A stretch of DNA of 64,000 nucleotides from a virus (IMGVR_UViG_3300036791_000892:1-64000); one strand, 5' to 3'. Shown: positions 8,700-20,617, counted from the first letter of the stretch. Numbers and translations: made by a program. Notes: generated by a model not told the origin, from the letters alone.

Positions 8700-8721
8700 T
8701 TCTTATACGAACGTATAAGAA
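8700..8721. promoter_or_regulatory. Palindromic operator-like site 1
   Basis: Perfect arms TTCTTATACG (8700-8709) and CGTATAAGAA (8712-8721) flank an AA centre. The site lies between the divergent terminase and HTH gene promoters. The same half-site recurs singly at many early promoters, suggesting a phage DNA-binding protein. Confidence 0.7.
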
Positions 8722-8737
8722 ATAATTTCTAACCCCC

Positions 8738-8766
8738 TTGACAAAATTCGTATAAGAAATTATTAT
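8738..8766 (+). promoter_or_regulatory. Leaderless promoter with an operator half-site in the spacer
   Basis: TTGACA (8738-8743), 17 bp, TATTAT (8761-8766), then 7 nt to ATG 8774. A reversed operator half-site, TCGTATAAGAA (8748-8758), occupies the spacer, where a bound protein would block RNA polymerase. Confidence 0.8.
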
Positions 8767-8773
8767 CTTATTC

Positions 8774-9052
8774 ATGGACACGCTAGTAAATGACGCAATC
8801 GAAACGAACGATCAAGCCAATTCAGGCACAATAACAATCGAAAAGACATCCAAGCCAGTCAAGACATCCAAGCCAGTCAAGTCTGAAAAGACAATGACGA
8901 CACGCGACATGGCCAAAATTCTTGGCATAACATCCAAGCAATTGCGTCGCATCTTACGCGACACGGACAAGTATGACGACGGCAAATATACGCGCTATTT
9001 GCTGACAAAAAGCGACTTGGATGCTGTCAAGAAAAAAATAGCTGGCAAGTAA
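8774..9052 (+). CDS. Small HTH protein, Lys/Thr-rich N-terminus (paralogue A)
   Basis: A 92-residue protein. Residues 1-40 are Thr/Lys/Ser-rich with a duplicated KTSKPV unit. Residues 41-92 hold a helix-turn-helix-like segment, TTRDMAKILGITSKQLRRILR, followed by a DKYDDGKYTRYLL wing-like stretch. It is clearly paralogous to the proteins at 13750 and 21654. It probably binds DNA. Palindromic operator-like sites lie before and after the gene, so it is a candidate autoregulator. The start is at ATG 8774, 7 nt after the -10 box, with no ribosome site. Confidence 0.8.
   Translation: MDTLVNDAIETNDQANSGTITIEKTSKPVKTSKPVKSEKTMTTRDMAKILGITSKQLRRILRDTDKYDDGKYTRYLLTKSDLDAVKKKIAGK
8843..8878 (+). repeat. 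Two tandem 18-bp repeats inside the HTH gene
   Basis: The unit AAGACATCCAAGCCAGTC is present twice head to tail and encodes the repeated KTSKPV. It probably arose by slippage in the disordered linker. Confidence 0.9.
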
Positions 9053-9063
9053 ATCCAGACACG

Positions 9064-9091
9064 GACGCGCTAGTCATCAAGCTAGCGCGTC
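9064..9091 (+). terminator. Rho-independent-type terminator after HTH gene
   Basis: A 10-bp stem, GACGCGCTAG (9064-9073) with CTAGCGCGTC (9082-9091), has an 8-nt loop and is followed by ATTTT. It sits immediately before the second palindromic operator. Confidence 0.75.
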
Positions 9092-9094
9092 ATT

Positions 9095-9116
9095 TTCTTA
9101 TACGAACGTATAAGAA
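9095..9116. promoter_or_regulatory. Palindromic operator-like site 2
   Basis: Identical to the 8700-8721 palindrome: arms TTCTTATACG and CGTATAAGAA around AA. No good -35/-10 pair lies beside it, so it could act as a roadblock ('stoperator') for transcription entering the downstream membrane-protein genes. Confidence 0.7.
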
Positions 9117-9135
9117 AAAAATTCGAGGAGGTTTT

Positions 9136-9279
9136 ATGCTATTAGTTACTGACCCGCAAGAAAGACGTATGAACATCGCCGCCATGCTAGAACGCGCCAC
9201 CCCCTGCTGGCAAGCCCTAAACCCCATACCTCGGGCATCTGCCCTGCTCCAGACCCCAGCCCCCGGAGGAGACAAATAA
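9136..9279 (+). CDS. Small hypothetical protein (47 aa)
   Basis: ATG 9136 follows a strong GAGGAGG ribosome site. It encodes 47 residues beginning MLLVTDPQERRMNIAAMLER, Pro/Ala-rich at the end. Its stop codon touches the GTG of the next gene, so the two are coupled. No family is recognised. Confidence 0.6.
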   Translation: MLLVTDPQERRMNIAAMLERATPCWQALNPIPRASALLQTPAPGGDK

Positions 9280-9492
9280 GTGGATCCCAATACAGTCACA
9301 GCCGCGCTATTGCTGATCGGCCTAGCCGGTTTTACGATCGGCTTCTACTTCCTCCCGACCACCATCGCCGGGCTGCGAAAACACAAAAACACCTTCATGA
9401 TCCTCTCCCTGAACCTTGTTTTTGGGTGGACGATAATCGGGTGGTTCGCTCTGATAATCTTCGCTTGCGCATCCCAAGATAGGAAAGCATGA
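9280..9492 (+). CDS. Superinfection immunity-like membrane protein (T4 Imm family)
   Basis: A 70-residue protein from GTG 9280 with a GGAGGA ribosome site. It has two hydrophobic helices (about 7-28 and 41-64) and the family pattern of PF14373: FLPTTIAGLRKHKN, then LNLVFGWTIIGWFALII. In T4, Imm sits in the inner membrane and blocks DNA entry of superinfecting phages. The flanking tiny genes (47 and 42 aa) are coupled to it, giving a small exclusion-type operon. Confidence 0.8.
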   Translation: MDPNTVTAALLLIGLAGFTIGFYFLPTTIAGLRKHKNTFMILSLNLVFGWTIIGWFALIIFACASQDRKA

Positions 9493-9617
9493 AAAACGAC
9501 AAAAAACTTCTCCTCGTCATCTCCTTCACCTCCATCGCATGGGCGGTGCTCTCAGGCTCACTCCTCTCCATCCTCATCCTCATCGCAATATCAACCTACA
9601 TCGTCATCTCATCCTAA
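9489..9617 (+). CDS. Tiny membrane protein (42 aa)
   Basis: ATG 9489 overlaps the preceding stop codon (ATGA). After MKNDKK there are two closely spaced hydrophobic segments, Leu/Ile/Ser-rich, to the end. Coupling to the Imm-like gene suggests a partner membrane peptide. No family is recognised. Confidence 0.6.
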   Translation: MKNDKKLLLVISFTSIAWAVLSGSLLSILILIAISTYIVISS

Positions 9618-9620
9618 CCC

Positions 9621-9652
9621 GAATGGGAGATCCTCCGATCTCTCATTCTTTT
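9621..9652 (+). terminator. Terminator after the Imm-like operon
   Basis: The stem GAATGGGAGATC with GATCTCTCATTC contains one G-U pair and a 4-nt loop. It is followed by TTTT. Confidence 0.75.
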
Positions 9653-9739
9653 GCGTTGGGGTGATCACCACCAACACCACCAACACCCCGATTGGTTCGG
9701 GATCCCCTCGATCACCCCCAAAAATAAATCTCCACCCCC

Positions 9740-9768
9740 TTGACATGGGATTGGCTTTCTTATACGAT
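9740..9768 (+). promoter_or_regulatory. Leaderless promoter with operator half-site over the -10
   Basis: CCCCTTGACA with TTGACA at 9740-9745, a 17-bp spacer, TACGAT (9763-9768), then 6 nt to ATG 9775. The half-site TTCTTATACGA (9758-9768) overlaps the -10 box. Confidence 0.8.
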
Positions 9769-9774
9769 TCTTGC

Positions 9775-10011
9775 ATGGACATGAATCAAATTCGCAACTT
9801 ATTGCTAGCGCAACAAAAACATATTGGCACGATATCAACCAGACAATTTGGCATAGACGAATTTTACGATGTCACACGATCAGCTCTTGACTTGGCATCA
9901 CAACTTCTTGACATCGTACAAGACGGCAACCCCCAAGACTTTGAAAACCTCGATCTTGACAATTTTGACAACACTGGCATATGTCAAGAAATCCTCGATA
10001 TCAAGTCATAA
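9775..10011 (+). CDS. Small acidic protein, cassette family (78 aa)
   Basis: Encodes 78 residues from ATG 9775, 6 nt after the -10 box; longer upstream starts would lie outside the transcript. The protein is Asp/Leu/Gln-rich and shares the layout of the proteins at 10727 and 11599: an N-terminal LLLAQQKH-like helix, an LASQLL helix, and a C-terminal GICQEILD motif. Single-gene unit ended by a hairpin. Function unknown; position and small size suggest a host-takeover or counter-defence role (inference). Confidence 0.75.
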   Translation: MDMNQIRNLLLAQQKHIGTISTRQFGIDEFYDVTRSALDLASQLLDIVQDGNPQDFENLDLDNFDNTGICQEILDIKS

Positions 10012-10017
10012 CAAAAT

Positions 10018-10038
10018 CCCCCGAAAACGAATCGGGGG
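10018..10038 (+). terminator. Hairpin after cassette gene 1
   Basis: CCCCCGA (10018-10024) pairs with TCGGGGG (10032-10038), followed by TTTGTG. Confidence 0.65.
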
Positions 10039-10067
10039 TTTGTGTTGAAATTGAGATCACCACCCCC

Positions 10068-10096
10068 TTGACAAAATAAATCCCTTCGTTTATCAT
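10068..10096 (+). promoter_or_regulatory. Leaderless promoter
   Basis: CCCCCTTGACA with TTGACA at 10068-10073, 17 bp, TATCAT (10091-10096), then 6 nt to ATG 10103. It has no operator half-site. Confidence 0.8.
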
Positions 10097-10102
10097 GTCT
10101 GT

Positions 10103-10381
10103 ATGTCAAACATATCTCATACTTGCCAAGACCAACCTCACTTGGCTTGTCCCGCTTGCAAATCCGCAAACGTCTATGAATTCTTCACCGAACAACTCGG
10201 TCACCCACCAACCGACGAAACACTGAAAGAGCTCCTGATCACCGACCCCTGCGGCAGAGATTGCATGAAGGTCATTATGGCTGCAAGACTGTACATGATC
10301 CTCGCCGACCCCCACCCCGGTGTGACTGCACCACTTCTCACGTCAGTCGATTGCGCGGTTGGAATCCTCTGGCATGGCTAA
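10103..10381 (+). CDS. Small Cys-containing hypothetical protein (92 aa)
   Basis: Starts at ATG 10103, 6 nt after the -10 box. The N-terminus has a HTC ... CPAC pattern (residues 6-19) suggestive of a zinc-binding knuckle, followed by helical segments around LKELLITDPCGRDCMKV. No family is recognised. Single-gene unit between two hairpins. Confidence 0.7.
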   Translation: MSNISHTCQDQPHLACPACKSANVYEFFTEQLGHPPTDETLKELLITDPCGRDCMKVIMAARLYMILADPHPGVTAPLLTSVDCAVGILWHG

Positions 10382-10384
10382 ACT

Positions 10385-10419
10385 AACCCCCACAGACGAA
10401 ACGCTCGTTTGGGGGGTTT
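10385..10419 (+). terminator. Hairpin after cassette gene 2
   Basis: ACCCCC and ACGA on the left arm pair with TCGT and GGGGGT on the right arm, followed by TT. Confidence 0.6.
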
Positions 10420-10437
10420 AACACCAACACCAGCCCC

Positions 10438-10466
10438 TTGACAGACATATTCCACTTTGATACAAT
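10438..10466 (+). promoter_or_regulatory. Leaderless promoter
   Basis: CCCCTTGACA with TTGACA at 10438-10443, 17 bp, TACAAT (10461-10466), 6 nt, ATG 10473. It has no operator half-site. Confidence 0.8.
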
Positions 10467-10472
10467 TTACTT

Positions 10473-10643
10473 ATGAAAACTGAACAAATCGTTTCCGAAC
10501 TCCAACGCCTTTTTGCACTTCTTACTGACAATGCCCAACCCATCCCACCGTACAAAATCACCAACAACCAAGACAAGCTCCTGGAGGTTGCTAAGGGTTT
10601 AGACCACCTGGCTGACAAACTCCTTGACTCGATTGACAGCTAA
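10473..10643 (+). CDS. Small helical protein (56 aa)
   Basis: ATG 10473 lies 6 nt after the -10 box. The 56-residue product starts MKTEQIVSELQRLFALLTD and is mostly amphipathic helix, ending ADKLLDSIDS. No family is recognised. It forms a complete promoter-gene-hairpin unit of only about 220 bp. Confidence 0.7.
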   Translation: MKTEQIVSELQRLFALLTDNAQPIPPYKITNNQDKLLEVAKGLDHLADKLLDSIDS

Positions 10644-10660
10644 ACCCCATGAGGGGTTAG
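10640..10660 (+). terminator. Short hairpin after cassette gene 3
   Basis: AACCCC and GGGGTT with a 4-nt loop. No U-tract follows. Confidence 0.5.
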
Positions 10661-10691
10661 TGTAGGGGTGATCACCAACACCACCAGCCCC

Positions 10692-10720
10692 TTGACTAGG
10701 AGTTTATTTTCTTATACGAT
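10692..10720 (+). promoter_or_regulatory. Leaderless promoter with operator half-site over the -10
   Basis: CCCCTTGACT with TTGACT at 10692-10697, 17 bp, TACGAT (10715-10720), 6 nt, ATG 10727. TTCTTATACGA overlaps the -10 box. Confidence 0.78.
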
Positions 10721-10726
10721 TATTGC

Positions 10727-11116
10727 ATGACAATTTTCAATTCTGGCACGTTAACCCGCGAAACATTACGTAAACTAACCCTTGCTCAACTTAAATATAT
10801 GTCCACCCTCGCAACTGACGATGACTGGCAACACTCCGACGAAACGAATGATAATCTAACCTCAGCAATTACGCTCGCCGACCTTCTCCACGATCTGACA
10901 ATCGATACAAGCATGAAAAATTCTGAATCTCAAGAATTTCAAGACACCCTCGATATGGCAAGATACATCTTCGATAACAAACTCCACTTGTTTACGGGTG
11001 GCATTTGCCAAGAAATTCATGACCTTCACCCTCGATCGCTCGATGACAATTTCGAACCACCTCCTCCAACCTCACATAAAAACACCCGGTGGGTTCATGC
11101 TTGGATATTTGATTAA
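10727..11116 (+). CDS. Small acidic protein, cassette family (129 aa)
   Basis: ATG 10727 is 6 nt after the -10 box. It is paralogous to the 11599 product (shared AQLKYMSTLATDDDW/AQLKHTATLCNDDHW, then a SD motif, an LADLLHDL helix and a GICQEIHDLH ending) and more distantly to the 9775 product. It carries an extra Pro-rich C-terminus. Acidic and helical; function unknown. The repeated family suggests duplication of a host-interaction gene. Confidence 0.75.
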   Translation: MTIFNSGTLTRETLRKLTLAQLKYMSTLATDDDWQHSDETNDNLTSAITLADLLHDLTIDTSMKNSESQEFQDTLDMARYIFDNKLHLFTGGICQEIHDLHPRSLDDNFEPPPPTSHKNTRWVHAWIFD

Positions 11117-11122
11117 ACACCA

Positions 11123-11142
11123 TCAGACTAGAAATAGTCTGA
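11123..11142 (+). terminator. Perfect 8-bp hairpin with GAAA tetraloop
   Basis: TCAGACTA, GAAA, TAGTCTGA. A GNRA loop but no U-tract, so it may act by protecting the 3' end or by Rho-dependent termination. Confidence 0.6.
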
Positions 11143-11169
11143 GTCGTCAATACCAACACCTCCTTCCCC

Positions 11170-11198
11170 TTGACGAGGAGTTTATTTTCTTATACGAT
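11170..11198 (+). promoter_or_regulatory. Leaderless promoter with operator half-site over the -10
   Basis: CCCCTTGACG with TTGACG at 11170-11175, 17 bp, TACGAT (11193-11198), 6 nt, ATG 11205. TTCTTATACGA overlaps the -10 box. The stretch from the -35 to the -10 is nearly identical to the 10692 promoter. Confidence 0.78.
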
Positions 11199-11204
11199 TT
11201 ATGC

Positions 11205-11516
11205 ATGACATATCAAAACCTCTTGCAAGCAATTGACGCGAAACTTGACTTAACCATCGACAACCTCACCTCCGAATTTGGCAATGAGGGTGCTGACATC
11301 GGGGATGCGGGAAATGCGATGGAGCTAATTGGCAATGCCATCGGGGACGATCATGAATCATACACCGCTGAGGAGTTTATTGCCAATCTAGCCAAAACCC
11401 TCGAACTCCCCAAATCCGAAATTCAAACCGCCTGGGATGAAATGAAATCGTGGGATAACAAGCAATGGCATGACGCATTTAAAACTTATGACGCATACCC
11501 CGGCTTTCGGGGATAG
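11205..11516 (+). CDS. Small acidic hypothetical protein (103 aa)
   Basis: Begins at ATG 11205, 6 nt after the -10 box (ATG 11201 is out of frame). Starts MTYQNLLQAIDAKLDLTID. Rich in Asp/Glu/Ala/Asn with three helical stretches, ending DAYPGFRG. Not obviously related to the GICQEI family beside it. Single-gene unit. Confidence 0.72.
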   Translation: MTYQNLLQAIDAKLDLTIDNLTSEFGNEGADIGDAGNAMELIGNAIGDDHESYTAEEFIANLAKTLELPKSEIQTAWDEMKSWDNKQWHDAFKTYDAYPGFRG

Positions 11517-11519
11517 CAT

Positions 11520-11548
11520 CGAACAAACCCCACAATGTGGGGTGTTCG
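11520..11548 (+). terminator. Strong hairpin after cassette gene 5
   Basis: CGAAC pairs with GTTCG outside, and ACCCCAC with GTGGGGT inside. No U-tract. Confidence 0.65.
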
Positions 11549-11563
11549 AGTCGCAAAAATCCC

Positions 11564-11592
11564 TTGACAAGAGATTCGTTTTCTTATACGAT
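11564..11592 (+). promoter_or_regulatory. Leaderless promoter with operator half-site over the -10
   Basis: TCCCTTGACA with TTGACA at 11564-11569, 17 bp, TACGAT (11587-11592), 6 nt, ATG 11599. TTCTTATACGA (11582-11592) overlaps the -10 box. Confidence 0.8.
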
Positions 11593-11598
11593 TCAGGC

Positions 11599-11907
11599 AT
11601 GACATATTTCGATATCGATTCTCTTACCAAAATTCAACTCCGTGAGATTACGATCGCCCAACTCAAACACACCGCAACACTCTGCAATGACGACCACTGG
11701 CTATACTCCGACGACGGGTTCGATTACGTTCAAGCTGGTGTAACCTTGGCATCAAATCTGCTCCATGCTATGGACCAATCACAAACCGACGCCGGTCAAG
11801 ACCTCCATGATGCCAAAGAGCTCCTGGCAAACTTGGATGACTATGCATGTGATGGTGTTTGCCAATACATCTACGACCTCCATTTTAAATGCCTTGAACA
11901 AGACTAG
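11599..11907 (+). CDS. Small acidic protein, cassette family (102 aa)
   Basis: ATG 11599 is 6 nt after the -10 box. Paralogue of the 10727 product (AQLKHTATLCNDDHW, SDDGFDYV, LASNLLHAM, and a final DGVCQYIYDLH). Acidic and helical, function unknown. Unlike the other cassette genes it is followed by two further genes with ribosome sites before the next promoter. Confidence 0.75.
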   Translation: MTYFDIDSLTKIQLREITIAQLKHTATLCNDDHWLYSDDGFDYVQAGVTLASNLLHAMDQSQTDAGQDLHDAKELLANLDDYACDGVCQYIYDLHFKCLEQD

Positions 11908-11914
11908 GGGAGAT

Positions 11915-12232
11915 ATGAAAATTATAAGAGATAGCAACCCACGTATCGGGGAGATTGAAACCGAGATAAGTAAACTCACCACTGAGCTGGAGCAGCTAAT
12001 AGCTGCAACACCAAAAGAACTAGATCATAGCCGAACAAGCGTGTTCGAGGACATGCGTGACTGTGGTGAGGATGGAATACCAAAGATTGAGGTGCTAAAA
12101 GATGTATTAGACTGGCGCGTGGAGTGCATGGAAATGGCAAGAGATCTCTTAAGTCAGGGGAGGACGGTCGAAGCAGCAGAGGAACTAAAGAGCATAGATG
12201 AAACAATCGAAGGTCTAAACTACGGAGGTTAG
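11915..12232 (+). CDS. Hypothetical coiled-coil-like protein (105 aa)
   Basis: ATG 11915 follows a GGGGAGA ribosome site just after the previous stop codon. The N-terminal IGEIETEISKLTTELEQLI stretch is a predicted coiled coil, and the C-terminal part, EAAEELKSIDETIEG, is also helical. No family recognised. It may oligomerise. Confidence 0.65.
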   Translation: MKIIRDSNPRIGEIETEISKLTTELEQLIAATPKELDHSRTSVFEDMRDCGEDGIPKIEVLKDVLDWRVECMEMARDLLSQGRTVEAAEELKSIDETIEGLNYGG

Positions 12233-12233
12233 A

Positions 12234-12407
12234 ATGAGAAGTATAGACGATGATGCGCGTATACTCATCGCCAGTGTGGAGAGAGCACTGGCGAGGGGAA
12301 CGAAACACTTCGACATCGACGGCAATGCACTCAACACCGTCGAGGAGATTCTTGAAGCACTGTGTATAGATGGTAGAATCAGGTTTGAACCGAAGCCACC
12401 ACAGTAG
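12234..12407 (+). CDS. Small hypothetical protein (57 aa)
   Basis: ATG 12234, with GGAGG upstream inside the previous gene's end. The 57-residue product starts MRSIDDDARILIASVERAL and ends Arg/Pro-rich. Helical and compact; function unknown. Last gene before a structured noncoding stretch. Confidence 0.6.
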   Translation: MRSIDDDARILIASVERALARGTKHFDIDGNALNTVEEILEALCIDGRIRFEPKPPQ

Positions 12408-12418
12408 GGGGCGGTCGC

Positions 12419-12495
12419 GGCAGGTAATTGAGGTCACGAAGTAATTTACCCTTCCCTCATTGGGTAATGATCCTTCACGAAGCTCTTTACCTGCC
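12419..12495. repeat. Nested inverted repeat, structured noncoding element
   Basis: Outer arms GGCAGGTAA (12419-12427) and TTACCTGCC (12487-12495) enclose inner arms TTACCC (12446-12451) and GGGTAA (12462-12467). CACGAAG occurs once on each side as a direct repeat. It lies between a gene end and the next promoter and may be a large terminator or RNA stability element. No coding potential is seen. Confidence 0.6.
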
Positions 12496-12512
12496 ACGAG
12501 CACCCCCTCCCC

Positions 12513-12541
12513 TTGACAAGGTGATCTTTTTCGTATAAGAT
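12513..12541 (+). promoter_or_regulatory. Leaderless promoter with reversed half-site
   Basis: CCCCTTGACA with TTGACA at 12513-12518, 17 bp, TAAGAT (12536-12541), 6 nt, ATG 12548. A reversed half-site, TCGTATAAGA, overlaps the -10 box. Confidence 0.75.
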
Positions 12542-12547
12542 ACTTGT

Positions 12548-12655
12548 ATGAAATTAAGACTGGCAAAACTGGCAAGACTAATCTCTTTTACCAACCACAA
12601 GCCAATACTCGGCAAAAACCAAATTGTCAAAATTCTCCTGGAGAAGTCAAAATGA
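12548..12655 (+). CDS. Leaderless short ORF (35 aa), coupled to the next gene
   Basis: ATG 12548 lies 6 nt after the -10 box. It encodes a basic 35-residue peptide starting MKLRLAKLARLISFTNHK, and its stop codon overlaps the next ATG (ATGA at 12652). It may be a leader peptide that delivers ribosomes to the downstream gene, or a functional small protein. Confidence 0.55.
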   Translation: MKLRLAKLARLISFTNHKPILGKNQIVKILLEKSK

Positions 12656-13017
12656 CAAGCAAAAAACAACAGAAACAAATCTTCCTCGCAGCACTTGATC
12701 TCTATGTAACCTGGCTTAACTCCTTTCACGACGCCGCCGATCCCACTGATAACGAGCACCCATACACCGCCAAAGATTTTACCGAAGGTTATGGACGTTA
12801 TACAATCGTCTCCTGCAACCCAGCTGCAAACGCTGACCTCGTCCTCCATGTATCTCTGACCGACGGGGATGAAGGTGGACCTCATGACCTCATTTTTGGC
12901 TGGCATGAATCTGACAATACCATCAAATTCATCCTCCAGGGATTTGATACCCTCTGGTGCATGATTTATAACGACGGGGAATTTGACCTGAAGGGATTTA
13001 AGCCAAATGCAATCTGA
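12652..13017 (+). CDS. Hypothetical protein (121 aa)
   Basis: ATG 12652 has a GGAG ribosome site and overlaps the leader ORF stop. A TTG 36 codons upstream in the same frame is less likely because it would lie at or before the transcription start. The product is acidic with mixed alpha/beta character, including FILQGFDTLWCMIYNDGEF near the end. No family is recognised. Confidence 0.7.
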   Translation: MTSKKQQKQIFLAALDLYVTWLNSFHDAADPTDNEHPYTAKDFTEGYGRYTIVSCNPAANADLVLHVSLTDGDEGGPHDLIFGWHESDNTIKFILQGFDTLWCMIYNDGEFDLKGFKPNAI

Positions 13018-13324
13018 AGAGATGCTAGAACCTTCACTACCCTGCTGCGAGTTCTGCAACAAGGAGTTCAACCCCAACAACCTGGAAAGCACAAATGGTG
13101 AGTATCACGAACGCCGAGAAGATGAGTTCTCCCGCGGCAAGAAGTTCCCCTGGCAAAAGAAGCAAGGATCACATCCGTACATCTTCTGCTCTGAAGAATG
13201 TGAGCTGGAGTCGGTAGATGATTACCGCATAGGTATGTGCGAGCTGCGTGATGCAATCGCCCATGGAGAATACCCTGACGACACCGAAGATCTTGGACCG
13301 GATCCCATGAGGCCGGAATACTAG
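13007..13324 (+). CDS. Small zinc-finger-like protein (105 aa)
   Basis: Overlaps the previous gene by 11 bp from ATG 13007 (ATG 13022 is an alternative). It has CCEFCNKEF near residue 14 and FCSEECELES near residue 60, a CxxC...CxxxC pair typical of a treble-clef or MYM-type zinc site. Rich in Glu/Asp at the end. Function unknown. Confidence 0.65.
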   Translation: MQSEEMLEPSLPCCEFCNKEFNPNNLESTNGEYHERREDEFSRGKKFPWQKKQGSHPYIFCSEECELESVDDYRIGMCELRDAIAHGEYPDDTEDLGPDPMRPEY

Positions 13325-13461
13325 GCAAAATGACAGTCAAGATACGAATTGAGATATCATTTTATCATCTCGGGGTGGCCTTTTAAAATCCCCTCTGACA
13401 TGTCTTGACCGTATCATGCCAAGACTAGAAGCAAATCGCCTAGAGGCAAGCAGAAAATCCC

Positions 13462-13491
13462 TTGACAATCTGTGATATCTCTTGATATGCT
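13462..13491 (+). promoter_or_regulatory. Leaderless promoter (18-bp spacer)
   Basis: TCCCTTGACA with TTGACA at 13462-13467, 18 bp, TATGCT (13486-13491), then 5 nt to ATG 13497. Confidence 0.6.
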
Positions 13492-13496
13492 TAGGC

Positions 13497-13676: not shown

Positions 13677-13688
13677 TTTGAGCCCCCC

Positions 13689-13717: not shown

Positions 13718-13749
13718 AATGCAAGTAAGAAATTCAAAGGAGACAAATC

Positions 13750-14109
13750 ATGGACAACGAAACTGTTAAACCGATCGATACTAACCCCGCCGTTCTCAAC
13801 CTGGCCAAGAAGCCGGTCGAAGCTGCCAAGACCGCCAAGACAGCCAAGGCCAAGATCGCCAAGACCGCCAAGACCAAGACCGAAGCCAAGACCAATGGCA
13901 AAGAGGCCAAGACCACCAAGACCAACGGTGAGGCCAAACAGACCAAAGGTGGCATGACCACACGCGAGGCGGCCAAGATCCTCAAGACGACCCCGAAGGC
14001 TCTCCGCCGGGCACTTCGTGACATGGACAAATACGACGACGGTGTCTACACCCGTTACCTTCTGGGCAAAGCCGACCTCAACGCCCTGGGCAAGATTCTC
14101 AACGCTTAA
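13750..14109 (+). CDS. HTH protein with histone-H1-like Lys/Ala/Thr tail (paralogue B)
   Basis: A 119-residue protein, ATG 13750, with a good ribosome site. Residues about 18-68 are repeats of AAKTAKT-like Lys/Ala/Thr units resembling histone H1-like tails. Residues about 70-119 carry an HTH segment, TTREAAKILKTTPKALRRALR, then DKYDDGVYTRYLLGKADL, closely matching the 8774 product and, less closely, the 21654 product. Probably an abundant DNA-binding protein; it has its own strong promoter and terminator. Its codons are more GC-rich than its neighbours'. Confidence 0.82.
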   Translation: MDNETVKPIDTNPAVLNLAKKPVEAAKTAKTAKAKIAKTAKTKTEAKTNGKEAKTTKTNGEAKQTKGGMTTREAAKILKTTPKALRRALRDMDKYDDGVYTRYLLGKADLNALGKILNA

Positions 14110-14863
14110 CTTCGTCCGCCGGTGGCATAAGTATCTCTCTAGCCACCGGCTTCTTTTTGTCTTTTTTATTGACCACCTGCAACACCTGCACGGTGATCTT
14201 GGGTGGCTGTATGGGTGATCCGTCGGGATTGCTGAACTCATGCTTCATGATGTTCTGCCCCAGCTCATCCCTCACCGCCTTGTGTATGCTGATCAATGAG
14301 TCCACCACGGGTGTATCAATATTATACACCTCCACCACCTGAAAATCATCACCCTTACCAATCCCCTTCAGCGTGCGGGTGACCAACCCAGTTCTCCCTC
14401 CTGGGACCTCTGCCATATCATCAGACTCCCCGCGCTCAAACACTGCGGTGGTGATGCGTTCGTGCATGTCGTTGAGCACCGCTAGCCTCCGCTCCTTCTT
14501 CGCCAGACCCTCGCTCAAGAATCTCTTAGCATATGCTTCTGCACTGTTGTTCACCATCACCTTAAATTCATCATGAGATTTCCAAGCCAACAACTGGCGT
14601 CTGGACATTCCCACAGTCTGGGCTACCTCGTTGAGTGTGTACCTTCCTTCACCGATCATCGCCGCAGCCATGATCTTCTTCTGCGAGCGTATGTCCAGAC
14701 AAACCTGCTCTTTACTCCTTTTCTTGCCACCTTTCCTTCTATGCTTCAAACTTGGCTTCTCGTCAGTTGCCTGTACTTCTTCAGTGGTCATGTCATCAAG
14801 CTCTGCTCTACGCCTGAATCCTTCAGTGTTTGAGTCCCTCCGACATTTTGGTGTTACTCTCAT
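14099..14863 (-). CDS. Probable terminase small subunit
   Basis: A 254-residue protein. Residues about 55-110 form an HTH-like unit, NEVAQTVGMSRRQLLAWKSHDEF, the DNA-recognition type seen in small terminases. The middle is helical, suiting oligomerisation. The C-terminal part has an FSNPDGSPIQPPKITVQVLQVV segment resembling the tail of many small terminases. It would recognise the packaging site and regulate the large subunit. The start at 14863 has a GGGGAG ribosome site. Its promoter carries an operator half-site. Its 3' end overlaps the convergent HTH gene by 11 bp and includes that gene's terminator. Confidence 0.65.
   Translation of the reverse strand: MRVTPKCRRDSNTEGFRRRAELDDMTTEEVQATDEKPSLKHRRKGGKKRSKEQVCLDIRSQKKIMAAAMIGEGRYTLNEVAQTVGMSRRQLLAWKSHDEFKVMVNNSAEAYAKRFLSEGLAKKERRLAVLNDMHERITTAVFERGESDDMAEVPGGRTGLVTRTLKGIGKGDDFQVVEVYNIDTPVVDSLISIHKAVRDELGQNIMKHEFSNPDGSPIQPPKITVQVLQVVNKKDKKKPVAREILMPPADEVKR
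14118..14156 (+). terminator. Rho-independent terminator for paralogue B
   Basis: GCCGGTGGC (14118-14126) pairs with GCCACCGGC (14142-14150), followed by TTCTTTTT. It is embedded in the 3' end of the minus-strand small terminase gene. Confidence 0.85.
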
Positions 14864-14882
14864 AATTAACTCCCCACAACGT

Positions 14883-14912
14883 ATGGTACAAAATTCTTAT
14901 ACGAAGATTCAA
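14883..14912 (-). promoter_or_regulatory. Small-terminase promoter carrying an operator half-site
   Basis: Minus strand: TTGAAT (14912-14907), an 18-bp spacer, TACCAT (14888-14883). The spacer contains TTCGTATAAGAATT, the same placement as at the 8738 promoter. Confidence 0.6.
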
Positions 14913-15092
14913 GGCACCTGAAAACTTCTCATACTCATTCTTATACGAGAATCAAAATTCTTATACGAGGGAGTATCAAACACCACCCCACCCCGATCTA
15001 GCAAGGGTGTGAGCGGTCTAGCGGAGTAATCTAGCAACCTATCCTCAAACCAAAAAACGATCACAAACCTGTGAAAAAAAATTCTTATACGA
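14892..15092 (+). promoter_or_regulatory. Cluster of four operator half-sites
   Basis: The core TTCTTATACGA occurs four times in the same orientation: within 14892-14904, 14937-14948, 14956-14968 and 15080-15092. Only the first overlaps a promoter. The rest stand alone in noncoding DNA, an arrangement seen for phage 'stoperators' and cooperative repressor sites. Confidence 0.75.
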
Positions 15093-15234: not shown

Positions 15235-15433
15235 TTATCTGCTTATTCTTAGATAGCAAGTGTTAATAAAATGAACTACTATGATAATCCAGTAAAAATC
15301 ATATTCTCACTATCTCAATCTTCACGACTTTTTAAAATGAAACATTCATACCTCGACTCAAAAGAGAAACGCTACTGTCTCCAGCGTTTTTTCTATTTTT
15401 TTTAACTGTCCGTATCTAAGAATAAGCAGATAA
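15235..15433. repeat. Perfect 21-bp inverted repeat with 157-bp spacing
   Basis: The arm at 15235-15255 (core CTGCTTATTCTTAG) and its exact reverse complement at 15413-15433. A chance match of this length in 200 bp is very unlikely. It could be paired protein-binding sites, an origin element, or the closing stem of a structured transcript. Confidence 0.85.
15367..15392 (+). terminator. Orphan Rho-independent terminator
   Basis: AAACGCT pairs with AGCGTTT across a 9-nt loop, followed by a T-run. There is no gene upstream for about 500 bp on this strand, so it may end a noncoding transcript or insulate the next operon. Confidence 0.65.
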
Positions 15434-15513: not shown

Positions 15514-15540
15514 TTTTCATGCAATTCTACGGAGCCAATT

Positions 15541-16680
15541 ATGTCCAGACCTCGCAAAGAAATCTTCGACTGTATTCACGAGATTTATCATGCATTTGAA
15601 AGAGAAGGAATGTACATCTCAGCATCTTCAAAGCTGCTTACCAACATAAAATCTCTCTACTCTTACCTCACATTCAAACGAGCACTTAATCTCCTCGGCG
15701 CAAAACTTGTAACTCGCAAAGTCAATATTCTCACCAACACACACAGCATGTCATCTTCACGAGTTACACGGCATTACTATCATCTTGTAATAGACCCCAA
15801 ACTAACACTCTGGAAAGCTAAACAGCGGGCTGATGAGCTCCCACTAGCATCCTACACTGAGTTATCTACCCGTATCCGTGCTCCCCGGCTCATGAAAAAA
15901 ACCAAGACGGAGAGAGAAAAAATAGAAGATATCAAGAAACACCTACACGACCGAAGAAAGAAGGAAGCACACGACATGCAGAAGTCTGAGCCGGCCGGAC
16001 TTTTCCACAACCGTCCTATGCAGACTAAGCAAGAGATTTTTGCCTCTGTACGCGAGTTGTTTCCAGTAACTAACTACAGATATCGAATAAGCCTCATCAC
16101 GCTCAGTAAAGCACTCCGTCTTGTGGGAGCTAGACCTATCCAGATGGAAGATGGGTGGTATTGGATGTATCCATCCGAGCAGATACTTGAGTTCGTCGAG
16201 GAGTTAACTCGGGACAAGCTGCCTGTCCCTGAGGTAGAAATCTTCAAGGAATGCCGCAGGCATAACTATCTATGGATCCCCGAGGTTGTTGTGTTTAGTA
16301 TAAAAGATAGAGAAATGCATAGGATGGTATGGCCCCAGGACAACTCTGCCCACATGAAATGGTGCTGGTATAATGGCAGGGCCGGGGCTTCATATCCACG
16401 CACAACACCAGAGGTTATTTACATGCCCATCGAGCCTCCCGTGAGAGTTAGAAAGCCGGAAGGAACTGACATTGTGGGAGACTTTCTGCGAGATATTTTG
16501 GGAGAAGAACTCAAGGTAGATCACAAGATCATACACAGGGCAGCTGCTGATGTGGGTATATTACCATTGCAGCTGCGCCAGAAAAATAGTTATGCCATAG
16601 GCCCAGGACAGCAGGTAGTAGGAGAGCGTTGGGGAGTAAAGAACAAGTTCGCATACTGGCACATCACATATAAAGATTAA
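15541..16680 (+). CDS. Hypothetical protein with two related helical domains (379 aa)
   Basis: Starts at ATG 15541 with a GGAG ribosome site. Two segments look like copies of one fold: residues about 5-55 (KEIFDCIHEIYHAF ... RALNLLGAKLV) and about 160-215 (KQEIFASVRELF ... KALRLVGARPI), each ending in a Tyr/Trp-rich strand. This is a winged-helix-like pattern. The middle is highly charged, with RRKKEAHD. A DNA-binding role is plausible; no named family. Confidence 0.7.
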   Translation: MSRPRKEIFDCIHEIYHAFEREGMYISASSKLLTNIKSLYSYLTFKRALNLLGAKLVTRKVNILTNTHSMSSSRVTRHYYHLVIDPKLTLWKAKQRADELPLASYTELSTRIRAPRLMKKTKTEREKIEDIKKHLHDRRKKEAHDMQKSEPAGLFHNRPMQTKQEIFASVRELFPVTNYRYRISLITLSKALRLVGARPIQMEDGWYWMYPSEQILEFVEELTRDKLPVPEVEIFKECRRHNYLWIPEVVVFSIKDREMHRMVWPQDNSAHMKWCWYNGRAGASYPRTTPEVIYMPIEPPVRVRKPEGTDIVGDFLRDILGEELKVDHKIIHRAAADVGILPLQLRQKNSYAIGPGQQVVGERWGVKNKFAYWHITYKD

Positions 16681-16700
16681 CACCACACAGGAGTAACATC

Positions 16701-16943
16701 ATGGAGATAAATGAAGTAGTAAAGAAGTTTCTAGCCAGCCCGCCGAAAGATCTCATCAGAGAGTTTCGCCAGTTCGTGATTCATGAGCCCATAGCCAAGA
16801 ATCTTCTCATTGAGATATGTACTGAATCGCTTGAACGTGGTGCCCGGCCATCAGACCTGGCTGGATTCTCACTTATGTACGGGATGGCTATAGGAGTTAT
16901 GCTTGAACGCCATCGAACCTCAACCCTTGACAAAGAATCCTGA
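16701..16943 (+). CDS. Small hypothetical protein (80 aa)
   Basis: ATG 16701 has a good AGGAG site. The product is helical: an N-terminal MEINEVVKKFLASPPKDLIREF stretch, a central hydrophobic LAGFSLMYGMAIGVML helix and a polar end. It shares the operon with the 15541 gene. The next promoter overlaps its last codons. Function unknown. Confidence 0.68.
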   Translation: MEINEVVKKFLASPPKDLIREFRQFVIHEPIAKNLLIEICTESLERGARPSDLAGFSLMYGMAIGVMLERHRTSTLDKES

Positions 16944-16955
16944 CGCATGTATCAT
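16927..16955 (+). promoter_or_regulatory. Promoter inside the end of the previous gene
   Basis: AACCCTTGACA with TTGACA at 16927-16932, 17 bp, TATCAT (16950-16955). Start near 16962, then a leader with a CGGAGAA ribosome site. Confidence 0.75.
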
Positions 16956-16990
16956 ATATTACGTTTCAAAAAATTTTTTTCGGAGAAACT

Positions 16991-17416
16991 ATGAATGGAC
17001 AAGACATTGACCAGCAAACGGCGTTTGCAGTTGGTCACATCTCATGCTGGCTCGGTACCTATGCAGAAAGCTGCTCAGTACTTCGGTCACAACTTACCCT
17101 CAGGGTGGCATCGATACTTCTCGCCGAGGCGGACGGGACGCTACTTCGGCCTGAAGATATTATGCCCTCACTGCCAAGACGTGCCACCAAAACACGTAAA
17201 GCCTTGGAACCGATGGCGTTGGCTAACGGTACACATCCTGACACACCGCCACACCATACAGTGAGAAAGCAAAAGAAAACGAGGAAGGGGTGGAAGATGC
17301 CTCAGGCGCAGAAAGACCACTTGTCGCACCTCGCTAAACTACGGTGGGGTAGTATGTCCAAGAACAAGAAAACTCGCTTGCAGAACAAGATGAGTAAAGC
17401 CAGGTTGGGTAAATAA
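16991..17416 (+). CDS. Hypothetical protein with basic C-terminus (141 aa)
   Basis: ATG 16991 is 5 nt after GGAG. The C-terminal 40 residues are Lys/Arg-rich with a QKDHLSHLAKLRWG motif seen at the ends of assorted phage proteins; the middle has an LPRRATKTRK linker. A second open frame from ATG 16995 overlaps for 270 bp and encodes 89 residues with a CPHC motif. I favour the longer frame because of its C-terminal motif, but both could be translated. Confidence 0.55.
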   Translation: MNGQDIDQQTAFAVGHISCWLGTYAESCSVLRSQLTLRVASILLAEADGTLLRPEDIMPSLPRRATKTRKALEPMALANGTHPDTPPHHTVRKQKKTRKGWKMPQAQKDHLSHLAKLRWGSMSKNKKTRLQNKMSKARLGK

Positions 17417-17425
17417 CACCTGTGG

Positions 17426-17444
17426 GGCCCCAGAAGATGGGGCC
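17426..17444 (+). terminator. Weak hairpin between early genes
   Basis: GGCCCC and GGGGCC with a 7-nt loop. No U-tract. Confidence 0.4.
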
Positions 17445-17461
17445 TCCGTGTTTGAGGGCAT

Positions 17462-17650
17462 ATGAGAAAGAAGAAAAAATTGAAGACTGCCCTGCTCAAT
17501 GCTGCTCATAGTCTTGAGAAGGCAAGCGAGGCGATAGCTAAGGTTCTGGAGGTAATACCTAAAGACCACGTGCATCGGAGAATGTTTTCCGAGCTCGAGA
17601 GTAGTTTGATGGATTCATCGGAGATGGCAGAGAGTCTTGCGAAGCTGTAA
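17462..17650 (+). CDS. Small basic-start helical protein (62 aa)
   Basis: ATG 17462 follows GAGGG. The 62 residues start MRKKKKLKTALLNAAHSLEK and form amphipathic helices to the end, with alternating Ser/Ala/Glu. No family is recognised. Confidence 0.65.
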   Translation: MRKKKKLKTALLNAAHSLEKASEAIAKVLEVIPKDHVHRRMFSELESSLMDSSEMAESLAKL

Positions 17651-17686
17651 AAAAATACCCCCTTGATATCAAATAGGTGGTGAAAA

Positions 17687-17956
17687 ATGGACAGAGAAAT
17701 GAAATACATTATCTTTGAAGTAACTAAAGGCCACACAATTCATATCCCTGTGGTATTCCATCGGGTTCTTAATCACAAGGATGTGAGTCAGGCATTGCTG
17801 CCCGTGTTGCTTGAAACTTTCTCACCTCACACGGTGAAGCCAGTGAGTGCTGGATTTTATAGCCTGCTGACTGGCCGGTGTACGGGTGAGTCGACATCTC
17901 TGGATTTGAGACACCGTGCTGAGGACAAGGAAATTATAGAACACGGCATCCCTTGA
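17687..17956 (+). CDS. Hypothetical protein (89 aa)
   Basis: ATG 17687 after AGGTGG. Mixed alpha/beta: a beta-rich N-half, YIIFEVTKGHTIHIPVVFH, then a helix, SQALLPVLLETF. The end of the gene contains the next promoter. No family is recognised. Confidence 0.62.
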   Translation: MDREMKYIIFEVTKGHTIHIPVVFHRVLNHKDVSQALLPVLLETFSPHTVKPVSAGFYSLLTGRCTGESTSLDLRHRAEDKEIIEHGIP

Positions 17957-17988
17957 CATAGTGAATTCTCGCATGTAACATATGTTAC
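17953..17988 (+). promoter_or_regulatory. Promoter with a 14-bp palindrome at -10/+1
   Basis: TCCCTTGACA with TTGACA at 17953-17958, 17 bp, TAACAT (17976-17981). The perfect palindrome GTAACATATGTTAC (17975-17988) covers the -10 box and start region and could be an operator different from the TTCTTATACGA family. Confidence 0.65.
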
Positions 17989-18018
17989 GTTATGTTAGTC
18001 AATTCAAAAGGAGCCTAC

Positions 18019-18252
18019 ATGGCGGACAAGAAGCCAACCTACGAAGAACTGCAGGAACAGTTGGAAGAGATGAAAAAGAAAGAAGCCAACCTGTCTTTCA
18101 AGGTAAGCGATAAAGGCGGAGTGAGTGTTTATGGCCTCGGCCGCTTTCCCGTGACATTGTATTATGAACAGTGGCAGAAACTGTTTGACAACATCGAGCA
18201 GCTTAAAACCTTCGTCAAGGACAACAAGAAAAAGATGAAGATGAAAGAATAA
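18019..18252 (+). CDS. Conserved small phage protein (77 aa)
   Basis: ATG 18019 with an AAAGGAGCC site. It has a coiled-coil N-half (EELQEQLEEMKKKEA) and a GGVSVYGLGRFPVTLYYEQW motif typical of a small protein family found in many environmental phages; function unknown. Lys-rich C-terminus. An upstream in-frame ATG lacks a ribosome site. Confidence 0.75.
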   Translation: MADKKPTYEELQEQLEEMKKKEANLSFKVSDKGGVSVYGLGRFPVTLYYEQWQKLFDNIEQLKTFVKDNKKKMKMKE

Positions 18253-18360
18253 AACAATTTGCCTGCGTGCTGCGTGTCCATACACTGAGTACGCCGTGGG
18301 ACTTTTGTCCATGGGGCCCCCAACGTCCACAGGCACAGTATTAAACCAATAGGAGGAAGG

Positions 18361-18705
18361 ATGACAACCATCAACAGCAAGGAACTTACCTCAGCACTGT
18401 CAGAGTTACAGGAACTACACCGCGAATCACACCGCAAAAATTTCAATGAACAAATCACACAGGCAATGAGATCCGAATTGGGCTGTCCCATCTGCGATGT
18501 CGGAAACAGACTCCTTGCCGATGATGAGATGTTTAAAGAATTCTTTGATTTCATGATGTCATCACTTGGGATTCGCTGTGTCACGATGGCAACCGTATTG
18601 GGACTTCAGTTTGATGTTTTCTATTCTCATACATCCATGCTATCTTTGGGAATCATAATCGGGAGAAAACAAGCCCAGGTGGAGGCCATGAAGGTTAAAG
18701 TATGA
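18361..18705 (+). CDS. Hypothetical protein with a CPIC motif (114 aa)
   Basis: ATG 18361 after a strong AGGAGGA site. It has a helical N-half rich in Glu/Gln, a single CPIC near residue 42, then a hydrophobic C-half that may dip into the membrane (IRCVTMATVLGLQFDVFY, SMLSLGIIIG). First gene of a 4-gene overlapping operon. Confidence 0.65.
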   Translation: MTTINSKELTSALSELQELHRESHRKNFNEQITQAMRSELGCPICDVGNRLLADDEMFKEFFDFMMSSLGIRCVTMATVLGLQFDVFYSHTSMLSLGIIIGRKQAQVEAMKVKV

Positions 18706-19124
18706 GTGTGCTCCAGCCTTGGCTAGAAAAACTCTCGTGGAAGAAGCAGACGGTCATGCTTGGTGCTATCCGTTCACCGGACAACGTGCATACACTAAAG
18801 CTCAAAGCACTTGTTATATGGATCCGTAACAACATAGTCCAGAATGCTGATCCTATGACTGGGTTCTTACATGCAGCCTTAGATGACCTTCCGCTGTTCG
18901 AGCACATGGACAGGGAGTTTGAGAGGCTCACATTACATGCCGCGCACCACATTCTACTGGCAATGGAAGTTATTGGATTCGACCACCCCGATGAGTTTAC
19001 CCGGATGAATGCATGGAAGTTTTATTCCGACGCAGTTGATGCTCAGCATTTAAACCCAGAAACTCCGGCACAATACGAATCCCGATACACAGACAATCCT
19101 TCAAGAACTAAAGGAGTGAGTTAA
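18702..19124 (+). CDS. Hypothetical protein (140 aa)
   Basis: Overlaps the previous gene by ATGA. A helical protein with a long amphipathic central region (FERLTLHAAHHILLAMEVIGFDHP). No family is recognised. It is followed without a gap by the next start codon. Confidence 0.65.
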   Translation: MSVLQPWLEKLSWKKQTVMLGAIRSPDNVHTLKLKALVIWIRNNIVQNADPMTGFLHAALDDLPLFEHMDREFERLTLHAAHHILLAMEVIGFDHPDEFTRMNAWKFYSDAVDAQHLNPETPAQYESRYTDNPSRTKGVS

Positions 19125-19628
19125 ATGAGAGATATTCTGATGTTCCAGTGGCTACTGGAGAACTGCCTGGAGAAGGTACAAAATGGCGCAGTCATCTTCC
19201 GCAGTGAACAAAGCCGCGACCACGCCATACAGAAATTCATGACGTACTTCTGTGGTGGCTCGTATGATGCTGCCAATCACAAGTACACGCTACCCAACGG
19301 AAGCACCATCACATTTTCAGTTATCCCGCCTGACCTCGAGCCGCCCGAGATGTACTATGACGAGGTGAGCCGGGTGAACCCAGCTCTGTACGAAATTGCG
19401 AAACGAGTAACACTGGACGCCGGTCTGCCCTATACGGACCCGCGAACCGGCATAACTACGAAACCAAAACCACCTAAAAGAGACCCGAAAAAGATCAGTA
19501 AAGCAGATTACGAGAACTTGGTAGCTTTCGTGAATGGCACCCCACAGAAGAATAAGAATGGTGTAAAGTTCATCGGAGAGCCAGTGCCAACGCCGAGAAA
19601 GAGTTCTAAAAAGAGGAGAAAAAAATGA
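19125..19628 (+). CDS. Hypothetical protein with basic tail (167 aa)
   Basis: The ATG follows the preceding stop codon directly. The N-terminal two thirds are mixed alpha/beta, with PNGSTITFSVIPPDLEPPEMYYDE resembling a domain in terminase-like or ATPase proteins without the catalytic parts. The last 45 residues are Lys/Pro-rich and basic. Possible nucleic-acid contact; no family is assigned. Confidence 0.65.
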   Translation: MRDILMFQWLLENCLEKVQNGAVIFRSEQSRDHAIQKFMTYFCGGSYDAANHKYTLPNGSTITFSVIPPDLEPPEMYYDEVSRVNPALYEIAKRVTLDAGLPYTDPRTGITTKPKPPKRDPKKISKADYENLVAFVNGTPQKNKNGVKFIGEPVPTPRKSSKKRRKK

Positions 19629-19813
19629 GTGAGCGAACATGGAAGTGGGGAAGAATCCAGCTTGATCTTGATTTCACGATGTTCGGTGTAGGCTTAGGGT
19701 TCTGTTTCAGTAACGGCTCGGCTTTTTTCTGTGTGCCGTTCTTTCTAGTTACTCGCGGGCCGGTAGAAGAGAAGCCGGTAGAAGAGGACGAATGTTCACC
19801 CGAGAAGAATTAA
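19625..19813 (+). CDS. Small hydrophobic hypothetical protein (62 aa)
   Basis: 4-bp overlap with the previous gene. A Phe/Gly-rich core (residues 18-43, TMFGVGLGFCFSNGSAFFCV) may insert in a membrane; the tail is acidic. No family is recognised. Confidence 0.6.
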   Translation: MSERTWKWGRIQLDLDFTMFGVGLGFCFSNGSAFFCVPFFLVTRGPVEEKPVEEDECSPEKN

Positions 19814-19992
19814 TACACTTACAATCACGTTTAAGAATCCAGTGTTATTGGATAATTTATCTCTCAAACCCAGACCTTCCCCTTGATCGTGATGAGATTA
19901 TTCTCGGCTATTTTGAAACTTTGGAGATATCCAAAATACTCAATCTATACCTTCCGCTTGAAAGCATCGGGGTCTCGTCTTTTCCGAGATAG
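19792..19992 (+). CDS. Small hypothetical protein overlapping a convergent gene (66 aa)
   Basis: ATG 19792 sits inside the end of the previous gene. Helical, Leu/Ile-rich with an acidic start. Its last 48 bp overlap the 3' end of the minus-strand HTH gene. No clear ribosome site, so its reality is uncertain. Confidence 0.4.
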   Translation: MFTREELIHLQSRLRIQCYWIIYLSNPDLPLDRDEIILGYFETLEISKILNLYLPLESIGVSSFPR

Positions 19993-20418
19993 TAAGTCAC
20001 GCAGTTTAAATAGATCGTCTGGTGAGATGTTGGAGATATCCAGATGCTTCAACCATTCAGCCGTCTTACCTTTGATCTTCCATTCCATCAATTCACTCAG
20101 CAAGTACTCAGCTTCACTGCGCCGGTTTGGATATTTGCGATGTCCTGTGCTACGATTCACATACTCATCGGAGTTCCAGAAGCCGTTAACTCCGGTATCT
20201 CTGGTAGAACCATCCCATGAAGTTTGTCGTTTCTTTCTACCTTTCCTATTATTGCTACCTTGTGGGTGTTTAAGTTGTGATTTATTTCCTACTCCACCTA
20301 ATACAGCTCGGATCTTTCTTCGACTTGCTGGGTTACGCTCCATTCCTAATGCCAGAGCGATCTCACCAGTTGTCAAGCCGCGTTCATGAAGATCCTTAAT
20401 CTTCAATATATCAAGCAT
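19945..20418 (-). CDS. HTH protein, minus strand, leaderless (157 aa)
   Basis: ATG 20418 is 5 nt after a TAGAAT -10 box. The N-terminal 40 residues are an HTH of the resolvase/Trp-repressor-like kind: KIKDLHERGLTTGEIALALGM. The middle (about 50-95) is very basic and polar, the C-terminus helical. As the only minus-strand gene inside the long plus-strand early block, it may be a regulator or a homing-nuclease-like accessory protein lacking a nuclease motif. Confidence 0.65.
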   Translation of the reverse strand: MLDILKIKDLHERGLTTGEIALALGMERNPASRRKIRAVLGGVGNKSQLKHPQGSNNRKGRKKRQTSWDGSTRDTGVNGFWNSDEYVNRSTGHRKYPNRRSEAEYLLSELMEWKIKGKTAEWLKHLDISNISPDDLFKLRDLLSRKRRDPDAFKRKV

Positions 20419-20423
20419 GTTTC

Positions 20424-20452
20424 ATTCTAGCAAAAAAAGACCCCTTTGTCAA
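20424..20452 (-). promoter_or_regulatory. Leaderless promoter of the minus-strand HTH gene
   Basis: Minus strand: CCCCTTGACA with TTGACA at 20452-20447, 17 bp, TAGAAT (20429-20424), 5 nt, ATG 20418. The -35 lies within the loop and stem of the terminator that ends the upstream RNA candidate. Confidence 0.7.
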
Positions 20453-20543
20453 GGGGCCTAGAGGTGGGGAGAGTGCCGGGAGGAACAAGTCGTAGTCGGG
20501 CTTTTTTTTCACGAAGTAACCGACCACTTTCGCCATCCCAGCA
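20430..20543 (-). ncRNA. Candidate small RNA of about 115 nt
   Basis: On the minus strand, TTGACT-17-TATAAT predicts a start near 20543. A hairpin CCCCTT/AAGGGG followed by seven T ends transcription near 20430. Between them, GTGGTCGG and CCGACTAC (20527-20520 and 20499-20492) form an 8-bp stem, then a C/U-rich single-stranded stretch containing TTCCTCCCGG and CTCCCCACCTC. The only ORF (ATG 20536, 41 codons) reads through the terminator, which argues for an untranslated RNA. The exposed CCUCC-like sequence could pair with ribosome-binding sites (inference). Confidence 0.6.
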
Positions 20544-20549
20544 GAATTC

Positions 20550-20578
20550 ATTATAGCAAACGGGCTCCTCAAAGTCAA
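20550..20578 (-). promoter_or_regulatory. Near-consensus promoter of the small RNA
   Basis: Minus strand: TTGACT (20578-20573), 17 bp, a perfect TATAAT (20555-20550). One of the strongest promoters by sequence in the window. Confidence 0.8.
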
Positions 20579-20588
20579 GCTGGATCCC

Positions 20589-20617
20589 TTGACAAAAGTT
20601 TGTATAAGAATTAATAT
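20589..20617 (+). promoter_or_regulatory. Leaderless promoter with reversed operator-like half-site
   Basis: TCCCTTGACA with TTGACA at 20589-20594, 17 bp, TAATAT (20612-20617), 6 nt, ATG 20624. The spacer contains TTGTATAAGAATT, a one-mismatch half-site, placed as at 8738. Confidence 0.75.

Follow-up and report, generated by a model that had tools for sequence, protein, structure and literature searches.

A short DNA word, TTCTTATACGA, recurs over and near early promoters in a 66,966-base virus record from IMG/VR (IMGVR_UViG_3300036791_000892), of which bases 1–64000 made up the stretch that we analyzed (the window), and we propose, with a probability of about 0.6, that its 15 copies serve as operators for a single phage-encoded repressor of the early region, most likely the product of gene 8774. 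By gene content the virus is a phage with a contractile tail (tail sheath, baseplate, portal, and TerL-type terminase) with genes for replication and recombination (PolA-type DNA polymerase, SNF2 helicase, Sak4, and exonuclease); leftward structural genes flank both ends of the record, and the rightward early/replication block runs from 8.7 to 48 kb. We regard the sites as operators because they coincide with promoter cores far more often than chance would allow and because they form a sharp, all-or-none set. Their placement supports this reading well; that they serve repression, and which protein binds them, we infer.

Eleven exact copies of TTCTTATACGA were found in the record, where 0.05–0.08 were expected under order-0 and fourth-order Markov models (Poisson P ~5e-23), and allowing at most one mismatch brought the total to 15, every one between 8700 and 20610. 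At two or fewer mismatches the window contained 41 matches, compared with 16.7 ± 4.0 in dinucleotide shuffles, and 41 was reached in none of 100 shuffles. These counts bear out the initial annotation of the window, which had called the family far above chance within ~12 kb and whose coordinates were right to within 0–2 bases. When we built a weight matrix from the 15 sites and scored it over the record, the sites scored 17.5–22.7 bits and the next-best place 11.0 bits, which is noise level (23 matches in the record exceeded 8 bits, versus 6–12 in simulated sequence). Thus, the motif search of the whole record that had been proposed as a check set the 15 sites apart from everything else, with no series of intermediate-scoring sites below them.

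The core TCTTATAC is unchanged across the 15 sites, with AT-rich flanks on either side. The 11-mer is itself near-palindromic (TTC-T-TATA-C-GAA), and its T/C asymmetry (positions 4 and 9) is preserved in 15 of 15 sites. At 8700 and 9095, where perfect palindromes had been reported, there are indeed inverted pairs of 22 bp, but in each of them two 10-bp arms flank a central AA (TTCTTATACG-AA-CGTATAAGAA), which makes the second half a one-mismatch copy of the 11-mer.

We listed by hand 27 promoters of the form (C)CTTGAC-16/18-TAnnnT and counted each inverted pair once, which left 13 independent sites. Seven of these 13 overlap a −35/−10 core (Table 1), and because only 4.8% of start positions in the 8.7–20.6 kb region fall in promoter cores, the probability of such overlap by chance is low (p 8e-7). 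All seven site-bearing promoters have a 17-bp spacer and an intact −35; being rightward, they carry four forward and three reversed sites, and the −10 itself is covered in five of them. The four forward sites lie at a constant offset over the −10 (TTCTTA-TACGAT); the initial annotation had described the copies at 9758, 10710, 11189, and 11582 as overlapping −10 boxes. Its description of the reversed copies as lying inside spacers was accurate for 8748 and 20600, whereas the copy at 12531 lies over the spacer end and the −10. A site that recurs over the cores of several phage promoters, seven in this case, is what would mark a general phage repressor operator set, and the mark of autoregulation, a site within the promoter of a gene for a phage DNA-binding protein, was found at both 8774 and 20624. 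Repression or timing by a phage factor, as had been suggested, is accordingly the best reading of this non-random placement and sharp site set. No integrase or CI-type repressor was found among roughly 45 proteins scanned, a sample that covered short open reading frames (ORFs) only partly, and this result fits a role in lytic timing.

Three of the four forward promoters precede genes for small proteins (9775, 10727, and 11599) that are diverged paralogues, only 32–34% identical, yet all three promoters carry the 11-mer without a mismatch, as selection on the site would predict. With this divergence, and with spacers that mostly differ (promoters 10692 and 11170 have a common one), we rejected promoter duplication as the cause of the recurrence. 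We also rejected an RNA element, there being no Rfam match and the promoter sites lying upstream of the expected transcription start. The three small proteins (9775–11907) share a G(I/V)CQ-I motif close to the C terminus.

The candidate binders named in the initial annotation, the products of 8774, 13750, 21654, and 20624, are all plausible DNA-binding proteins (67–138 amino acids, each with one recognizable DNA-binding domain). Although none is proven, 8774 is most likely the binder and its own regulator, because it has a site in its own promoter and is bracketed by identical 22-bp inverted pairs. The five motif copies within ~420 bp around this gene, which has its own promoter and its own terminator, likewise point to an autoregulated regulator. 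In the structural model the small domain of 8774 was predicted as a winged helix (predicted local distance difference test, pLDDT, ~85 in the best two blocks), for which VIA-align placed the RacA DNA-binding domain nearest (Z 7.0, root-mean-square deviation 1.2 over 49 residues), followed by pSK1 Par (Z 6.7) and the MerR-family protein HiNmlR (Z 6.3), all at Z <8 and therefore indicating a common arrangement, not family membership. A Foldseek search with 8774 gave no match below E 0.01 (E-values were ~0.5), family searches by sequence gave matches below cutoffs only, and a sequence search of the PDB gave nothing useful. Two paralogues of 8774 are encoded in the same phage, 13750 and 21654, the latter with an acidic tail.

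The same operator set might instead be bound by 20624, which by its sequence reads as a ribbon-helix-helix (RHH) protein and whose promoter carries a site placed in almost the same register as the one at 8774. Arc-type dimers bind half-operators ~11 bp apart, a spacing that by analogy would fit both the 11-bp units and the 22-bp inverted pairs. However, 20624 has one site compared with the five at 8774, no RHH family match passed the cutoff, and its model was too poor to use (predicted template-modeling score, pTM, 0.30, with no strand modeled). We consider 20624 a possible binder, albeit a doubtful one.

The geometry of the sites is that of steric repression, which allows both orientations to be used in promoters, and neither an upstream activator nor MotA-type replacement fits it: with the −35 intact MotA-style replacement is not needed, and with 17-bp spacers MerR-style untwisting is not needed. 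We find it improbable that an activator or an alternative host factor, such as a MerR-like spacer regulator or a host regulator read by the phage, binds the sites instead of a repressor. In favor of this reading, 8774 is predicted to fold like MerR, MerR proteins are activators that act from the spacer, and the −10 of the four forward promoters (TACGAT) is weaker than that of most others. Nevertheless, the spacers here are of the optimal 17 bp, as opposed to the 19–20 bp of MerR promoters, and five of the sites sit on the −10 itself. In addition, the 22-bp inverted pair is absent from IMG/VR and from 84,980 bacterial and archaeal genomes, although single 11-mers may occur in the host.

Four forward sites lie in the non-coding gap upstream of terS, at spacings of 44, 20, and 124 bp. 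Those at 14938, 14958, and 15082 are lone copies, as previously described, whereas the copy at 14894, instead of being isolated, probably lies in a weak minus-strand promoter of terS. Within the gap are the record's most AT-rich 400 bp and the inverted repeat at 15235/15413, which is the sole one of ≥18 bp within 420 bp in the record, and the cumulative GC-skew minimum lies at 16117, ~1 kb from this repeat; together these features make the gap a possible replication origin. It is very unlikely, in our estimation, that the lone cluster at 14.9–15.1 kb is primarily a packaging (pac/cosB-like) or origin (iteron-like) element of which the promoter copies are secondary uses or duplicates, since seven sites lie inside promoter cores far from the terS gap and iterons at origins usually occur in larger numbers and at even spacings, even though the cluster is directly upstream of terS and beside these origin-like features, and even though a phage with a 49% identical TerL (L015) has ~10 copies of a different 11-mer in its gap between primase-helicase and terS/terL. 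In L015 the copies are of AACGTGAGTTA, occupy positions 9088–9473, and include a 22-bp inverted pair, a layout similar to that described here that does not imply homology.

The presence of the motif in relatives had been proposed as a further check, and the site was not found elsewhere. Searches with 8774, 13750, and 20624 (tblastn against IMG/VR, phages, plasmids, and GTDB) returned no relatives, and the TerL relatives, at up to 57% identity, and PolA relatives, at up to 31%, are too distant for a test of site conservation. The forward promoter pattern had four matches elsewhere, each single-copy in unrelated AT-rich phages; three of the four were read as ORFs, which placed two inside a terL-like gene and one in an intergenic region. 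The reverse promoter pattern had seven matches, six of which were the same promoter in near-identical, very AT-rich prophages. In this prophage promoter (L109, 4669–4695) TTCGTATAAGAA lies between TTGACA and TATAAT, and with one exact site per record we judged the matches to be coincidence. A hidden Markov model (HMM) of the three paralogues 8774, 13750, and 21654 matched weak, Lys-rich winged-helix relatives in two PolA-related phages, indicating that this type of protein recurs, and a repeat count on PolA loci (3-kb loci were inspected) showed no site family of this kind.

In the site-bearing promoters the ATG lies 6–7 bases past the −10. A TA-like signal ~10 bases ahead of the start codon is an accepted sign of leaderless genes, which are common in Actinobacteria and Deinococcus-Thermus (PMC3160421), and the mRNAs of the site-bearing tiny genes are probably leaderless. 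The strict arrangement TTGACA-16/18-TAnnnT-5/8-ATG occurs 16 times in the record (8738–33284), which suggests that leaderless early genes are widespread in this phage, and it is nearly absent from 80 TerL-related loci; with a leading C, the pattern occurs 15 times in this record versus once in 26 other whole records.

In the model that we favor, in which the 15 sites are operators for 8774, host RNA polymerase would start at the strong TTGACA-17-TAnnnT promoters of the tiny, probably leaderless genes, and the repressor, once made, would occupy the 11-bp site in the spacer or over the −10 and keep polymerase from binding or from opening the promoter, turning the early genes off in the manner of Cro-like early shut-off. 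The protein would regulate its own synthesis through the site in its promoter and the two bracketing inverted pairs, whose separation of 395 bp perhaps permits cooperative binding or looping, and the four sites upstream of terS would let it act on the terS promoter and the adjoining AT-rich gap. Several considerations weigh against this model. The strict T/C asymmetry is not needed by a symmetric dimer; the strong early promoters 10068, 10438, 13462, and 13689 of the same block lack a site, as does the promoter of 13750, the close paralogue of 8774; and the RHH gene 20624, like 8774, has a promoter that bears the site. The Lys-rich relatives that 8774 has in PolA-related phages could be general DNA-coating proteins. 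Moreover, we found no relative in which site and protein co-vary.

Table 1. Sites, promoters, genes, and other elements, in coordinates of the window.
Feature	Coordinates	Strand	Remarks
Exact copies of TTCTTATACGA	8700+, 8748-, 9095+, 9757+, 10709+, 11187+, 11581+, 14894+, 14938+, 14958+, 15082+		Whole-record search
One-mismatch copies of TTCTTATACGA	8711-, 9106-, 12531-, 20600-		
22-bp inverted pair, TTCTTATACG-AA-CGTATAAGAA	8700..8721	.	Upstream of 8738 promoter
Promoter of gene 8774, TTGACA-17-TATTAT	8738..8766	+	Reversed site 8748-8758 in spacer; ATG 7 nt past -10
Gene 8774, 92-aa protein	8774..9052	+	Lys-rich N-terminal tail and MerR/RacA-like winged helix-turn-helix (predicted)
Intrinsic terminator of gene 8774	9064..9091	+	11-bp stem, then ATTTTCTTAT
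Second, identical 22-bp inverted pair	9095..9116	.	Just past 8774 terminator
Promoter TTGACA-17-TACGAT	9740..9768	+	Site 9757-9767 over -10; small gene 9775
Promoter TTGACT-17-TACGAT	10692..10720	+	Site 10709-10719 over -10; small gene 10727
Promoter TTGACG-17-TACGAT	11170..11198	+	Site 11187-11197 over -10; small gene 11205
Promoter TTGACA-17-TACGAT	11564..11592	+	Site 11581-11591 over -10; small gene 11599
Promoter TTGACA-17-TAAGAT	12513..12541	+	Reversed one-mismatch site 12531-12541 over spacer end and -10
Gene 13750, third candidate binder	13750..14109	+	67% identical to 8774 over 48-aa domain; long Lys/Ala/Thr tail
terS-like gene	14099..14863	-	PHROG terminase small subunit, E 2e-6; downstream of lone sites
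Site in spacer of weak minus-strand promoter TTGAAT-18-TACCAT (inferred)	14894..14904	+	Upstream of terS
Two lone sites, 14938-14948 and 14958-14968	14938..14968	+	20 bp apart
Lone site	15082..15092	+	Left edge of AT-rich gap
21-bp perfect inverted repeat	15235..15433	.	Arms 15235-15255 and 15413-15433; inside record's most AT-rich stretch
Promoter TTGACA-17-TAATAT	20589..20617	+	Reversed one-mismatch site 20600-20610 in spacer; gene 20624
Gene 20624, 67 aa, second candidate binder	20624..20827	+	RHH-like by reading sequence

Two further patterns were seen in other promoters. Five consecutive promoters (22137, 23618, 26182, 28029, and 29575) have an AGA(N0-3)TCT dyad close to the −35 within the spacer, which is present in 5 of 5 of these and 0 of 22 others, in a pattern chosen after looking; these promoters (22137–29603) may constitute a second operator class. 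The promoters at 16927–16970 and 17953–17996 share CGCATGTA(A/T)CATAT(A/G)TTACGTT over and past the −10, possibly representing a third. A broader proposal, which is tentative and in our view unlikely to hold, is that one small protein both shuts off leaderless early promoters and occupies sites beside the origin and terS, coupling shut-off to the start of replication or packaging, with at least one further operator class on the next block of early promoters.

The regulon proposed here is compact and directly testable, with 15 near-identical sites, seven site-bearing promoters, and many matched site-free promoters in the same genome. If leaderless initiation is true, no more than ~40 bases separate operators from start codons, and repression, promoter strength, and translation start would be set by one short stretch of DNA. 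The favored binder, 8774, is one of a group of Lys-rich winged-helix proteins, of no known role, that are found repeatedly in related phages.

Among the closest known systems are the repressor operators and stoperators of the L5-type system of Cluster A mycobacteriophages, in which >20 asymmetric sites are spread across the genome, mostly off promoters and mainly in one orientation relative to transcription, and are bound by a monomeric, two-domain repressor (helix-turn-helix plus stoperator domain) of ~180 amino acids (PMC9283540, PMC6550527). The phage described here resembles that system in having many copies of one short asymmetric site per genome, some of them in early promoters, and a small candidate binder of the helix-turn-helix type. 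In contrast to that system, all 15 sites are within 12 kb, 7 of the 13 independent places are in promoter cores, both orientations occur at rightward promoters (four forward, three reversed), the remaining sites form two inverted pairs and one cluster as opposed to scattered intergenic singles, and a two-domain repressor and integrase were not seen. With neither the wide genome spread nor the transcription-following orientation, the stoperator reading fails on two defining features, and the likeness to stoperators that the initial annotation had seen in the lone copies, which are confined to one gap beside terS, is not supported.

The proposed mechanism resembles the early shut-off exerted by lambda Cro, in that a small DNA-binding protein is encoded among early genes, is proposed to be autoregulated, and has sites over early promoter cores. 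Unlike the two three-site operators of Cro, the sites here are 11-bp units, single or in inverted pairs, over many promoters, and the predicted fold of 8774 is MerR/RacA-like, not Cro-like. In iteron-type Rep regulation an inverted pair is the autoregulatory operator and direct repeats lie at the origin; here, too, a small gene for a DNA-binding protein has inverted pairs on both sides, and an AT-rich gap close to the GC-skew minimum has direct repeats next to it, but no family search identifies 8774 as a Rep protein, the direct copies are only four and widely spaced, and most sites are promoter operators. T4 MotA boxes and other motifs of phage middle promoters are likewise phage-specific words repeated in many promoters of a phage, although the word described here leaves the −35 hexamer intact and is located over the spacer and −10, without replacing the −35. 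Neither the site nor its likely binder has a known relative; the principle, that of phage repressor operators, is a familiar one.

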